From Sulfurospirillum oryzae (lineage in GTDB: Bacteria > Campylobacterota > Campylobacteria > Campylobacterales > Sulfurospirillaceae), in NCBI RefSeq assembly GCF_025770725.1, contig NZ_JANZKZ010000001.1:744001-808000 (forward strand): a DNA stretch of 64,000 nucleotides. The letters are read 5' to 3'. The notes beneath the pieces were generated by a model, which did no database searches, was not told the DNA's origin, and saw nothing but the letters and a program-made list of their open reading frames with translations. Numbering within the stretch: the stretch's first letter is position 1; each line of letters begins with the position of its first letter. Shown here piece by piece: positions 35,581 through 42,390 of the stretch. The position numbers and the translations under genes were made by a program.

Positions 35581-35793
35581 TTAGAGTCTCGACTCGTAAC
35601 GGCGAAGCATATAAAGTCTTTTCAACTGTTTTTTGCGAGCACTAATTTTATCTTTTTTGCGTTTTTCTGTTGCTGTTTCATAGAAACGTCTTGCACGCAC
35701 TTCAGTTACAACTAGGTTACGATCAACTTGTTTTTTAAACTTTCTATACGCTTCGTCAAACGAATCGTTAGGATGTACTTTAATTCCTGGCAT
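35581..35793 (-). CDS. rpsU: 30S ribosomal protein S21
   Basis: A 70-residue basic ribosomal protein with typical [21 protein letters not shown] start and [21 protein letters not shown]-type ribosome-binding site precedes the start. It is between the HTH cluster and the divergent recombinase-like gene; in C. jejuni the same gene neighbours the UPF0323 lipoprotein and the CcoG-like gene. Confidence 0.97.
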
Positions 35794-35905: not shown

Positions 35906-35960
35906 AATTGACGATAAAAATCAATTATCTCTTGACTTTATACGTCAATACGTGTATACT
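35906..35960 (+). promoter_or_regulatory. Promoter with paired TTGAC inverted repeats
   Basis: A strong sigma-70-like promoter has -35 TTGACT (35932-35937), a 17-bp spacer and -10 TATACT (35955-35960). The -35 lies in the inverted repeat TTGAC-N7-GTCAA (35932-35948). A second repeat, AATTGA-N9-TCAATT (35906-35926), sits upstream with its TTGAC 24 bp from the first. These look like operator sites. Confidence 0.65.
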
Positions 35961-35996: not shown

Positions 35997-36692
35997 ATGA
36001 ACATCGTCCTTTTAAAAAATAGAAATGATGATTTTCCAATCATTATTCAACAAAAGCAAATCTTAAAGTATGCCCACCATTACGATCTTAAAATTGATAC
36101 CACAGAGATTGAAAACTCTGATCCTACACTTGAACTTGAGGAAAGAAAAGAATTCAAAGGCTTTTTGCGTTCACTTTCAAAAAATGACCATGTTATTATT
36201 TTTGACCTCTTTACCTTTTCAACTCACGTAGAAGAATTAGTCAAAATTTTTGAATGCTTGCTCACACGTTCTATATCCGTCCATATCGCTGATGCTAATG
36301 TATGTATTCATACTGACTCTAAACCTTTAGTACTTCTAGAACTTCTTGTCAAACAACGAGAACTCAATAAAAAGCTAGACAAAGAAAAAACGCAAGGTAG
36401 GCCTAAAGGTCGTATGTCAAAATCAAAATTTGATATTCACAGACCTTATATCATTGAACTTCTTGAAAACCGTACTTCAATCAGTGAAATTTCAAAAATC
36501 TTACATGTAAGCCGTACATCGCTGAAAGATTATGTCAATTCTAGAGGTCTTAAAGATCTTGTCAAAGCAAAAATTTTACTGCTTCAATCATCTAAAAAAC
36601 CATCAGTAGTGTTAAAATCTCCAACTCCAAAAGAGTGTTCACTCATTAAACAGCCAATAGATCAAACAGAAGGAAGACACCATGAATTGTAA
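35997..36692 (+). CDS. Serine-recombinase-derived protein lacking catalytic residues, putative regulator
   Basis: A 231-residue protein with the layout of a small serine resolvase/invertase: N-terminal Rossmann-like domain (1-125), a GRPKGR hinge near 130, and a C-terminal helix-turn-helix (IIELLENRTSISEISKILHVSRTSLKDYV). Catalytic positions are gone: the usual R-x-S-T-D-D is K-N-R-N-D-D, and D-R-L-x-R is D-L-F-T-F. Hence it should not cut DNA; I infer a domesticated DNA-binding regulator. It overlaps ccoG by 11 bp, so the two are coupled. The promoter carries paired inverted repeats. Confidence 0.78.
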   Translation: MNIVLLKNRNDDFPIIIQQKQILKYAHHYDLKIDTTEIENSDPTLELEERKEFKGFLRSLSKNDHVIIFDLFTFSTHVEELVKIFECLLTRSISVHIADANVCIHTDSKPLVLLELLVKQRELNKKLDKEKTQGRPKGRMSKSKFDIHRPYIIELLENRTSISEISKILHVSRTSLKDYVNSRGLKDLVKAKILLLQSSKKPSVVLKSPTPKECSLIKQPIDQTEGRHHEL

Positions 36693-38055
36693 TAGCGATT
36701 TATCAATTCAACCCACTTATTATCGGTTGAAACGCTATCTTAGTTTTGGCATCATTACGCTCATAGCACTAATTTTGCCATTTATATCCATAGAAGGAAA
36801 ACACTTTTTCTTGCTCAGTTTTGACAAAAAACAGTTGCATCTTTTCTTTACAACTTTCGATATGCAAGAGCTCTACTTAATGCCCTTTGTCATCATGCTT
36901 TTCTTTTTGAGTATCTTTTTTATCACGACTCTTGGAGGTAGAGTTTGGTGCGGCTGGTCATGCCCCCAAACTATTTTTAGAGTTATTTTTCGTGATTTGA
37001 TTCAAACAAAACTTTTGGGTATCCGAAAAAATATTAATAACAAACAGAAAGAACCTGAAGAAGGACAAATATTTAAACGTATTTTTGCACTTCTTATTTG
37101 GGCATGTTTAGCCCTTTTAGCAGCTTCTAATTTCCTATGGTATTTTATTCCGCCTGAAGACTTTTTTGTTTATCTCAAAGATCCTTTTGAAAACAGTGTT
37201 ATGTATGGCTTTTTAATATGTATCACGTTATTTTTGATCTACGTTGTTACTTCTTTAAAAGAAAATTTTTGTGTCTATATTTGCCCGTATGCACGTATCC
37301 AATCAGCACTTTTTGATGAAAACACCATTCAAACAATCTATGATGAAAAGCGCGGTGGTAAAATTTACGATGCAAAAGGGCTTAAACTAAGCAATAAACC
37401 ACCTTTAGCAACAGACGATTGTACAGGATGTGAAGCATGTGTGCGTGTATGTCCAACACATATTGATATTCGCAAAGGTATGCAATTAGAATGTATTAAC
37501 TGCTTAGAGTGCGCTGATGCATGTACCCCTGTTATGGAAAAACTTGGCAAGCCTTCGTTGATTACATGGACAAGTTCTAACGCTGCTGAAAAAGACATCA
37601 AAACACAATATATCCGCTTTAGAACCGTTGCCTATGTCATTGCTTTAACCTTAGCACTTATTGGTCTTTTTGTTATGGGGACTAAGAAAGAGTATATGCT
37701 TTTAAATATCAACCGGACAAGTCAACTCTACAAAGTAGCAGATGATGGCAAAACGATTGAAAATGTCTATACCTTTTTATTTCAAAATACAGACTCTAAA
37801 GATCATCTTTACTATTTTGACATTTCAAATCAAGCCATTAAGATTGATAAACCAAGTGAGCCTTTCTTGCTCAAATCTGGCGAGAAACTTAAAAAAGTAG
37901 TCATTCTATCATCGGTACCTAAAGAGCTAAAAACTGAAGGTGAAGATATGCCTATTAGTATTAAAGCCTATGCTATCGATTTAAAAGAGAAAATTGTCGT
38001 TGAACGCAAAAGTATTTTTATTTATCCTAAAAAAAGTGATGTTCATCCCCAATAA
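36682..38055 (+). CDS. ccoG: Cytochrome c oxidase accessory protein CcoG (FixG/RdxA-like)
   Basis: A 457-residue polyferredoxin-like membrane protein, required in other species for copper delivery to the cbb3-type oxidase. Membrane helices lie near residues 14-33, 52-75, 125-150 and 165-185; WCGWSCPQT and CVYICPYARIQ carry NapH-like Cys residues. Two [4Fe-4S] clusters are encoded by CTGCEACVRVCP and CINCLECADACTP (about 248-280). A periplasmic IgG-like C-terminal domain follows one further helix near 315-335. No ccoNOPQ genes are in the window. Confidence 0.93.
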   Translation: MNCNSDLSIQPTYYRLKRYLSFGIITLIALILPFISIEGKHFFLLSFDKKQLHLFFTTFDMQELYLMPFVIMLFFLSIFFITTLGGRVWCGWSCPQTIFRVIFRDLIQTKLLGIRKNINNKQKEPEEGQIFKRIFALLIWACLALLAASNFLWYFIPPEDFFVYLKDPFENSVMYGFLICITLFLIYVVTSLKENFCVYICPYARIQSALFDENTIQTIYDEKRGGKIYDAKGLKLSNKPPLATDDCTGCEACVRVCPTHIDIRKGMQLECINCLECADACTPVMEKLGKPSLITWTSSNAAEKDIKTQYIRFRTVAYVIALTLALIGLFVMGTKKEYMLLNINRTSQLYKVADDGKTIENVYTFLFQNTDSKDHLYYFDISNQAIKIDKPSEPFLLKSGEKLKKVVILSSVPKELKTEGEDMPISIKAYAIDLKEKIVVERKSIFIYPKKSDVHPQ

Positions 38056-38142: not shown

Positions 38143-39096
38143 ATGATAACCTCTAGCCGTATTCAAAACTTTCCTATTATGATGTTTGCTATCGTTATGG
38201 GACTTTCAGGGCTCACCATCGTTTATCAAAAAGCTACTTTATGGCTTGGTTTCCCAAATATCATTGCAGCTTCTTTAGTACTTTTAGTCACCATTGTTTT
38301 TATAATAATTGTTACACTCTATGCAATGAAAATCATTTTTTTCTTCGAAGAAGTTAAACAAGAATTTGCCCACCCTATTCGGATCAATTTTTTTGCAGCA
38401 GCTTCTATCTCATTATTATTGCTTTCTATTATTTACCAAGATATACACATAGGTATATCTGCGTGTCTTTGGTATATGGGTGCTGGCTTACAAACATTTT
38501 TGACATTTTATACTATCCGCTTTTGGATTACTCAAAATATGGAAATTGTACATTCCAATCCAGCATGGTTTATTCCTATCGTAGGTAATGTTATTGCTCC
38601 TATTGGTGGAGAGCACTTTGCAAGTCCCGAAATACTCATTTACTTCTTTGCAGTAGGTATCTTTTTTTGGATTATTTTATTACCAATAATTGTCAATCGT
38701 ATTATTTTTCATCATCAGCTTGCTCAGAAGTTTTTACCTACTCTTTTTATTTTAATAGCACCACCTGCCATTGGGGTTATCTCGTATCTTAAAATAACAG
38801 GCCATTTTGACCTCATGGCAAGTATACTGTACAGTTTAGGACTTTTCTTTACATTACTGTTGATTTTTATGGTAAAAAACTTTTTAAAACTACAATTTTT
38901 TATCTCGTGGTGGGCATTTACTTTTCCATTAGCAGCTATTACGATTGCTTCTCTTGTTGCTTTTCATGCTACACAAAAACTATTTTATAGCTATATTGCA
39001 ACTCTTTTAATTGTAATAACAACTTCTGTTATTTGTTTTGTAGGATATAAAACACTTTGGTATATTTCTAAAAAAGAAATTTGTATCGCAGAGTAG
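38143..39096 (+). CDS. SLAC1/TDT-family transporter
   Basis: A 317-residue integral membrane protein with about ten helices, resembling the tellurite-resistance/dicarboxylate transporter (TDT) group that includes SLAC1-like anion channels. NPAWFIPIVGNVIAP is a family-like loop. Substrate is unknown. It is in the same direction as ccoG but behind a terminator. Confidence 0.82.
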   Translation: MITSSRIQNFPIMMFAIVMGLSGLTIVYQKATLWLGFPNIIAASLVLLVTIVFIIIVTLYAMKIIFFFEEVKQEFAHPIRINFFAAASISLLLLSIIYQDIHIGISACLWYMGAGLQTFLTFYTIRFWITQNMEIVHSNPAWFIPIVGNVIAPIGGEHFASPEILIYFFAVGIFFWIILLPIIVNRIIFHHQLAQKFLPTLFILIAPPAIGVISYLKITGHFDLMASILYSLGLFFTLLLIFMVKNFLKLQFFISWWAFTFPLAAITIASLVAFHATQKLFYSYIATLLIVITTSVICFVGYKTLWYISKKEICIAE

Positions 39097-40447: not shown

Positions 40448-42261
40448 AAGTGTACCTCACTAAGTTTCTCCTTCATATTTGATATTAATGCTTCTTTTGT
40501 CAAATTATACTGTGTTCTCTCACGTCTATCTCTAACAGCAACACTTTGTTCTTCCACTTCTGCATCACCAATGACCAAAATCATTGGTACACGCATGGTT
40601 TCAGCGTTACGAATACGTTTATTAAGACTCTCATTTTTGGAAGAGATCTCAACATCAATACCCTCTGCCATTAACTCATTGGCTAATGTTTTTGCGTACG
40701 CTAAATGCGCATCTGAAATTGGAACAATTACGGCTTGAATTGGCGCAATAAAGAATGGAAACTCTCCAGAAGTATGCTCAATCAAAATACCAATAAAACG
40801 CTCAAATGAACCTAAAATTGCACGATGTAACATGACTGGACGCGCATGCTCATTATTCGCATCAACATAAGAAATATCAAAACGCTCAGGCAAGTTAAAG
40901 TCAACTTGAATAGTACCACATTGCCATTTACGTTTAAGGGCATCGGTAATTTTGATGTCGATTTTAGGACCATAAAACGCTCCACCACCTTCATCGATAC
41001 CATAATGGATGCCATTCTCATCAAGAGCTTTTTTTAAGCCTTCGGTTGCTGCTTCCCAGTATTTTTCATCGCCGATTGATTTTTCAGGGCGTGTTGAAAT
41101 TTCCATATCATACTTAAACCCAAAAGTTTTCATAATAGAATCGACAAAACTTAAAATTTCTAAAACATTCTCTTTAATTTGATCAGGTGTACAGAAAATA
41201 TGCGCATCATCTTGTGTAAATTCACGCACACGGAAAAGTCCATGCAATACGCCACTTTTTTCATGTCGATGCACGACACCGTATTCAAAAAATTTAAGTG
41301 GTAAATCACGATAGCTTCTGACCTCATTTTGGAACACTTTAATATGTCCTAAACAGTTCATTGGCTTAATACCATATTCTGCTTCATCAATTACGGTAAA
41401 ATACATATTTTCACCATAATTTTGATAGTGACCACTAATCTTCCACGCATCTGATTTTAAAATCTCAGGACCACGTACAGGCTGATAGCCACGCTGTCGG
41501 TGTGCTTTAAAAAGAAGCTGTTCTAGTTTACTTCTCAGTCTTCCACCATTTGGAAGCCAAATAGGAAGACCAGCTCCAACTTCGTCATCAAAGGTAAAGA
41601 GTTTGAGTTCATTACCAAGTTTTCGGTGATCTCGCTTCTTTGCCTCTTCAATCATAGTCACATAATCTTTGAGACTCTCTTTATCTGCAAACGCTATTCC
41701 ATAGATACGAGTAAGCATTTCGCGTTTCTCGTCACCGCCTAGATAGGCACCCGCAACTTTGATCAGTTTAAAAAATCTAAGATATTTGGTGTTTGGAACG
41801 TGAGGTCCACGACATAAATCTTCAAAATCACCTTGCTTATAGATGGAAACTTCACCATCAGGAATTCTAAGTAAGACTTCTTGCTTCAAATCATCGTGTT
41901 CAAAATGTTTAATAACAGCCGTTTTCGTTGTGTAAATCTTCTCAATGGGTAACTTAGCATTTGCAAGCTCTGCCATCTTTTTTTCTATCTCTTTAAGATC
42001 AGCATCACCAATCTTTTCATTGACACGAAAATCGTAATAAAAACCGTCTTCAATGACAGGTCCAACAAAAAATTGTGCATCTTTGTACAACGCTTTAATC
42101 GCTTGAGCCATTAAGTGTGCGCACGAGTGACGAATCACTTCAAGGGCATCTTTAGAGTTGTCAAATAAGATTTTGTCTTCGTAAGTCTTTGAGGAGGCAG
42201 CAGCAGTTTGAGTGTCAATGACGAGTACGCCATCTTTATAGGCTATAACATCATTCATCAT
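40444..42261 (-). CDS. thrS: Threonine-tRNA ligase
   Basis: A 605-residue synthetase, shorter than the usual 640 because the N-terminal TGS/N1 region is largely missing, as I recall for other Campylobacterota. The editing domain has [11 protein letters not shown], the class II core has [11 protein letters not shown] (zinc Cys) and [23 protein letters not shown]-type motif 2 (quoted here in part), and the anticodon domain starts near [10 protein letters not shown]. The 3' end is coupled to infC by a TTGA overlap. Confidence 0.95.
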
Positions 42262-42314
42262 AGTAAGATCCTTTTACTTGTATGAACTCCCAAACAGACG
42301 GGAGAACAAAAAAA

Positions 42315-42390
42315 TGGTGGCCACGAGAGGATTCGAACCTCCGACCACTACCATGTCAAGGTAGTGCTCTACCAACTGAGCTACGCGACC
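42315..42390 (-). tRNA. tRNA-Val (anticodon GAC)
   Basis: A 76-nt cloverleaf read on the minus strand: acceptor GGTCGCG with CGTGGCC (two G-T pairs), D-arm GCTC, anticodon stem CTACC/GGTAG with loop TTGACAT (anticodon GAC), T-loop TTCGAAT and an encoded CCA end. It is located 53 bp upstream of thrS on the same strand. Confidence 0.96.

Follow-up and report, generated by a model that had tools for sequence, protein, structure and literature searches.

The genome of Sulfurospirillum oryzae contains an open reading frame that resembles a serine recombinase and overlaps ccoG, an accessory gene of the cbb3-type terminal oxidase, which raises the question what a relative of DNA-rearranging enzymes does at such a locus. 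The initial annotation proposed that a catalytically dead recombinase had become a regulator or an assembly partner of its respiratory neighbour. We analyzed the locus within a window of 64,000 nucleotides (contig NZ_JANZKZ010000001.1, positions 744,001 to 808,000; all coordinates below are those of the window) and compared it with the corresponding loci in other genomes of the order.

A serine recombinase relative without its catalytic residues

The open reading frame (35997..36692, + strand; referred to below as the regulator) is intact and encodes 231 amino acids. The claimed relation to the resolvases was confirmed by profile matches, alignment and predicted structure. The match to the resolvase profile PF00239 amounts to 24.1 bits, narrowly over the cut-off of 23.3, and the structure prediction that had been put forward as a check yielded a serine recombinase fold (pLDDT 85.9, in a model built from 48 aligned orthologues). 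The top structural matches of this model are serine recombinase catalytic domains, the best being a truncated gamma-delta resolvase (Z 13.9). Given this homology and fold, the protein is a member of the serine recombinase superfamily by descent and structure. Among the curated NCBIfam models the Mpi invertase model (NF009949) matches best, but its 46.7 bits are far below the cut-off of 272. A dead recombinase domain (residues 1-133), a GRPKG arm plus helix-turn-helix (HTH; 134-186) and a tail (187-231) can be discerned. The HTH that was said to be kept is indeed seen in the predicted structure, although the match to HTH_7 (PF02796) is weak and stays under the cut-off (17.4 versus 23.8 bits).

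To specify the state of the active site, gamma-delta resolvase and intact recombinases from the same order were aligned with the ccoG-linked members. Ser10, Arg68 and Arg71 are all substituted in every ccoG-linked member aligned, and helix E has lost its C-terminal part, including Arg125, both in these members and in a group of relatives designated f18. The asserted loss of the catalytic serine and both arginines is thus correct for Ser10 and Arg68/Arg71, but other residues of the active-site region were kept: Gln19 and Arg45 are invariant and position 8 is either Arg or Lys. Neither of the two outcomes that would have spoken against the annotation, no relation to PF00239 or an intact set of Ser and Arg residues, arose in the profile search and the alignment. 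Judged from the aligned columns, a protein without Ser10, Arg68, Arg71 and a complete helix E is not expected to be an active serine recombinase.

Distribution and ccoG linkage of the regulator family

A protein search of the order gave matches in 154 of 299 genomes, a number that includes a distant lineage (f9) which we treated apart from the ccoG-linked family. The survey of ccoG neighbours that had been suggested earlier disclosed a strict synteny: outside f9 and f18 the regulator is located directly upstream of ccoG and on the same strand in 73 of the 73 loci sampled, and the neighbours other than ccoG vary from family to family. In the window ccoG (36682..38055, + strand; TIGR02745, 491 bits) and the regulator overlap by 11 bp, in accordance with the original claim; in most other families there is no overlap. 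A 50-row tree unites the ccoG-linked members with those of f18 in one clade of 36 rows (support 100/99), within which the families cluster in the way vertical descent predicts. Orthologues are spread over many families of the order and appear to have been inherited vertically, as expected of descent. Between members of the genus dN/dS is around 0.06-0.16, indicating strong purifying selection. The regulator represents a conserved family and is no local decay product.

Some features of the surroundings may be mentioned here. Upstream lies rpsU, in divergent orientation (35581..35793, - strand), and downstream of ccoG a gene for a SLAC1/TehA-family transporter (38143-39096), which is found likewise in several other genomes (loci L034, L035 and L133). 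Rfam gave no known RNA elements at the regulator locus; a match to the HPnc0260 antisense RNA was found elsewhere in the window (42224-42353), overlapping a tRNA gene on the opposite strand.

The upstream dyad and the invariant cysteines

When the upstream regions were compared side by side, a conserved dyad, TGACGATAAAA-N17-TTTTATCGTCA, became apparent just upstream of the regulator in loci of many families. Measured over both arms, it spans 39 bp in most loci and 38-40 bp in nearly all others; in one locus (L050) the span is 50 bp, around one helical turn longer. In the window the putative operator (TGACG...CGTCA, 35909..35947) is arranged around a promoter on the + strand. First comes the left arm (35909..35919), whose position relative to the -35 box, -22 to -24, is conserved in 56 of the 62 upstream regions anchored. 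The -35 box TTGACT (35932..35937) stands between the arms, and the right arm, with its core CGTCA (35943..35947), falls in the spacer of 17 nt that precedes the -10 box TATACT (35955..35960). Across the loci the spacer is 17-18 nt, the boxes are near the Sigma-70 consensus, and in all parsed loci except two an offset of 11 nt separates the start of the right arm from that of the -35 box. In some families additional half-sites occur at -43 and -63, corresponding to a period of 20-21 bp.

The strict dyad is present in 55 of 68 distinct upstream regions, versus 0.025 expected on the basis of shuffles. The exact 39-bp pattern gave 48 matches over the 299 genomes and its reversed control 2; all except four of the 48 lie just upstream of regulator orthologues, the remaining ones being two in f18 and two that look like chance. 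Genome-wide pattern searches recovered a single dyad site in the window's own genome. A wide regulon was considered and rejected, as the searches of this genome and of its relatives gave essentially one site, and an operator before the genome's own ccoN was likewise rejected, the upstream stretch inspected containing no matching dyad. Genomes in which the regulator is absent or not adjacent to ccoG contributed 20 ccoG upstream regions, and no such dyad was found in these either. The fate of the site after loss of the gene is illustrated by two loci of relatives. In L165, which belongs to the same family and has lost the regulator, the -35 and -10 boxes are kept and the right arm reads AATCTA instead of CGTCA; since the promoter boxes remained and the right arm has gone, the operator arms appear to track the gene rather than the promoter. 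In L164 the regulator is a pseudogene and the promoter has decayed as well.

A conserved, putative binding site that overlaps the protein's own promoter is what one would look for in a TnpR-like autorepressor. Two observations count against this reading or complicate it. In several loci of family f6 the right arm is degenerate. Furthermore, classical resolvase sites measure 28 bp, and considering that the present spacing exceeds this and that helix E is shorter, the bridging of both arms by one dimer poses a difficulty.

The possible sensing function concerns two cysteines. Among 66 non-redundant members, Cys87 in helix D (codon 36255..36257, + strand) and Cys214 in the C-terminal tail (codon 36636..36638, + strand) are both invariant (66/66 each), and at both positions the two cysteine codons are in use. 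Neither cysteine is present in the active relatives aligned, and the remaining invariant residues are only Q18, R50 and those contacting DNA. Members of the family that were added later also have both cysteines, with the exception of the pseudogene L164 and of L133, which lacks the tail cysteine despite its ccoG link, a fact that counts against an autorepressor acting as sensor. In this f14 member (L133:4299-4916) Cys87 is retained and another cysteine is found just before the GRPQG arm. The confidence of the model is higher around Cys214 (71) than in the flanks (45 and 52), and on account of this peak the tail may dock in the modelled structure. Invariant cysteines of this kind are consistent with a cysteine-based metal or redox sensor.

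The f18 members have lost the two cysteines as well as the ccoG link. They retain an operator nevertheless, which counts against a sensing role. In their loci (L204:1645-5055 and L206:3581-4162) the gene behind the dyad is a NifX-like one of the PF02579 family with a His/Cys-rich tail. In L204 it is followed by cydA and then cydB (cytochrome bd); given the latter, the f18 target still concerns a terminal oxidase, and this shift of target counts in favour of a regulator. Genes of the PF02579 family are also located after ccoG in several other loci. The copper chaperone genes SCO1 and PCuAC lie close to the f18 regulator L077. The Arcobacteraceae-like f9 homologues (L078-L089) were rejected as carriers of the dyad, as they show a different upstream motif and form a separate lineage in the tree. 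They are not adjacent to ccoG; in five of the six aligned Ser10 is replaced by Asn, and Arg71 and helix E are kept. Many f9 loci contain the upstream motif TAACATTTTGTATAA, which forms an inverted repeat in L082 alone. Possibly, the f9 homologues constitute a second, independent dead-recombinase regulator.

Proposed function, alternatives and known systems

In Tn3, resolvase bound at the res sites, which hold the promoters of tnpR and tnpA, keeps both genes repressed (PMC7157771). Given that TnpR already is an autorepressor, the loss of recombination with retention of autorepression would, by analogy, have been a short evolutionary step towards a function that is ancestral. CcoG is a cupric reductase that is needed for full activity of the cbb3 oxidase (PMC7558416), and a ccoG mutant of Campylobacter jejuni retains around half of that activity (PMC8267372). 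Considering that the DNA-binding arm and HTH are near-unchanged, that the dyad overlaps the promoter and that ccoG encodes a cupric reductase, autorepression that is relieved via the cysteines provides the best explanation. We consider it likely that the regulator is a domesticated serine recombinase that now acts as a one-component autorepressor of the operon with ccoG and is derepressed through its cysteines. The proposal in the initial annotation of an ex-recombinase that regulates an accessory gene of a respiratory oxidase thus finds support, at the level of sequence comparison, in the operator and its decay, the ccoG linkage and the constraint on the DNA-binding part. The operator and the two invariant cysteines are findings that go beyond that annotation.

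In the proposed mechanism, the GRPKG arm, contacting the minor groove, and the HTH would bind both arms of the 39-bp dyad, which lie on either side of the -35 box, the right arm within the spacer before the -10 box. Bound there, the protein would block RNA polymerase. The dead catalytic domain would have stayed as a dimerisation and sensing module, and Cys87 and Cys214 would most likely sense the signal by way of Cu(I) or another metal, thiol oxidation, or a metal-sulfur cluster. The signal would release the promoter, after which CcoG would supply Cu(I) to the cbb3 oxidase. The parts of this scheme differ in strength. Binding of the protein at the dyad is very probable in view of the conserved site, and repression probably prevails over activation. 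That the cysteines form the sensor is somewhat favoured over the opposite. CcoG hints at copper as the signal; the cydAB target of f18 hints at oxygen or redox. Cu(I) is a tentative candidate for the ligand, and redox, oxygen or an Fe-S cluster is an equally tentative one.

The same promoter architecture could be read as that of an activator or dual regulator, which bends or untwists the promoter instead of blocking it. The right arm between -35 and -10 is placed as in MerR-type promoters, and the half-site arrays upstream in some families would suit such a protein as well. MerR promoters, however, have a long spacer, whereas here near-consensus boxes are separated by 17-18 nt and the core promoter itself is partly taken up by the dyad, making activation unlikely. 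A different role altogether would be to serve CcoG as a structural or assembly partner, translated together with it by virtue of the 11-bp overlap and with DNA binding as a secondary trait. The overlap, the strict synteny and the combination of a tail cysteine with a cysteine-rich partner fit this role, but it accounts neither for the operator, which is conserved together with the gene, nor for the invariant residues, most of which contact DNA. Moreover, the genes do not overlap in most other families and the f18 members keep the operator while unlinked to ccoG, so that we regard an assembly partner as quite improbable.

The near-identical duplicates of ccoG in several genomes that carry the regulator could be taken as products of a recombinase that is still active, by an unusual chemistry, at a site near ccoG. 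The protein lacks, however, the nucleophilic serine, both arginines (Arg68 and Arg71) and the C-terminal end of helix E, and site-specific recombination needs at least two cognate sites, where the window's own genome has one operator. In addition, the stretch shared by the duplicates comprises about the ccoG gene alone, without the operator, and the second copies reside in ccoNOQP operons, which renders continued recombinase activity highly improbable. Simple decay of a gene retained by chance beside ccoG would agree with the lost catalytic residues and with the two genomes that have a pseudogene or have lost the gene completely; it is refuted by the low dN/dS and by the DNA-contacting residues and cysteines that are invariant clade-wide, and has practically no probability left. 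An autorepressor relieved through its cysteines thus remains our preferred reading.

Cysteine-based one-component sensors include those of the CsoR, CueR, ArsR and FNR types. Like the regulator, they combine invariant cysteines with DNA binding and are linked to operons connected with copper or oxygen respiration, but their fold is unrelated. TnpR of Tn3/gamma-delta is alike in fold, in its GR-type minor-groove arm plus HTH and in having sites that overlap its own promoter (PMC7157771). The regulator differs from it in the lack of the catalytic Ser and Arg residues, the shortened helix E, the single dyad per genome with a span of 39 bp, the chromosomal location and vertical inheritance, the predicted target, which is a respiratory accessory gene, and the two invariant cysteines. 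The Mpi-type DNA invertases (NF009949) and the intact serine recombinases of the same order have a DNA-binding arm similar to the GRPKG arm of the regulator; those aligned keep Ser, Arg68 and Arg71, and the regulator clade is separate from them. Regulators that originate from mobile-element proteins (PMC8987985) offer a parallel for the recruitment of a mobile-element DNA enzyme to host gene control, although the sections consulted of that review present serine recombinases as active enzymes and describe none as a dead recombinase regulator. The initial annotation knew of no described regulator of this kind, and in the open-access literature we likewise found no description of a resolvase-like regulator with ccoG, in Sulfurospirillum or in Campylobacterota, an absence that constitutes weak evidence. 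To our knowledge, no dedicated regulator of the serine recombinase fold has been described.

The locus thus provides a specific candidate regulator, for which operator, target and sensing residues are all predicted. A more far-reaching reading, on which we are nearly undecided but lean slightly to the negative, is that of a new family of one-component regulators, in which a dead serine recombinase controls the high-affinity oxygen respiration of the order and senses copper, oxygen or redox via two cysteines. If so, its targets would be CcoG for the cbb3 oxidase and, in one family, cydAB, the cysteines would possibly form a metal or Fe-S site shared within the dimer, and the regulator would operate in a group that is reported to have no ArcA and FNR orthologues. 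It would, moreover, illustrate clearly how a recombinase can be stripped down to autorepression, a side activity of its ancestors, and then equipped for sensing.

Finally, the duplicates of ccoG deserve a remark of their own. In two families a second ccoG is found inside the ccoNOQP operon (L058/L121, L063/L122, L052/L123, L066/L124, L069/L125 and L127/L126), with 97.7-100% identity to the copy beside the regulator, in a match confined to roughly the gene. A recombinase origin of these copies was rejected; their location in ccoNOQP operons, the match over about the gene itself and the lack of the operator fit gene conversion better, and the near-identity suggests that such conversion is ongoing. 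Genome G173 contains three ccoG copies 111,017 bp apart. In genome G040 the regulator-linked ccoG (L119) and the ccoNOQP copy (L120) differ by 25 gaps, pointing to a recent pseudogene or an assembly error.
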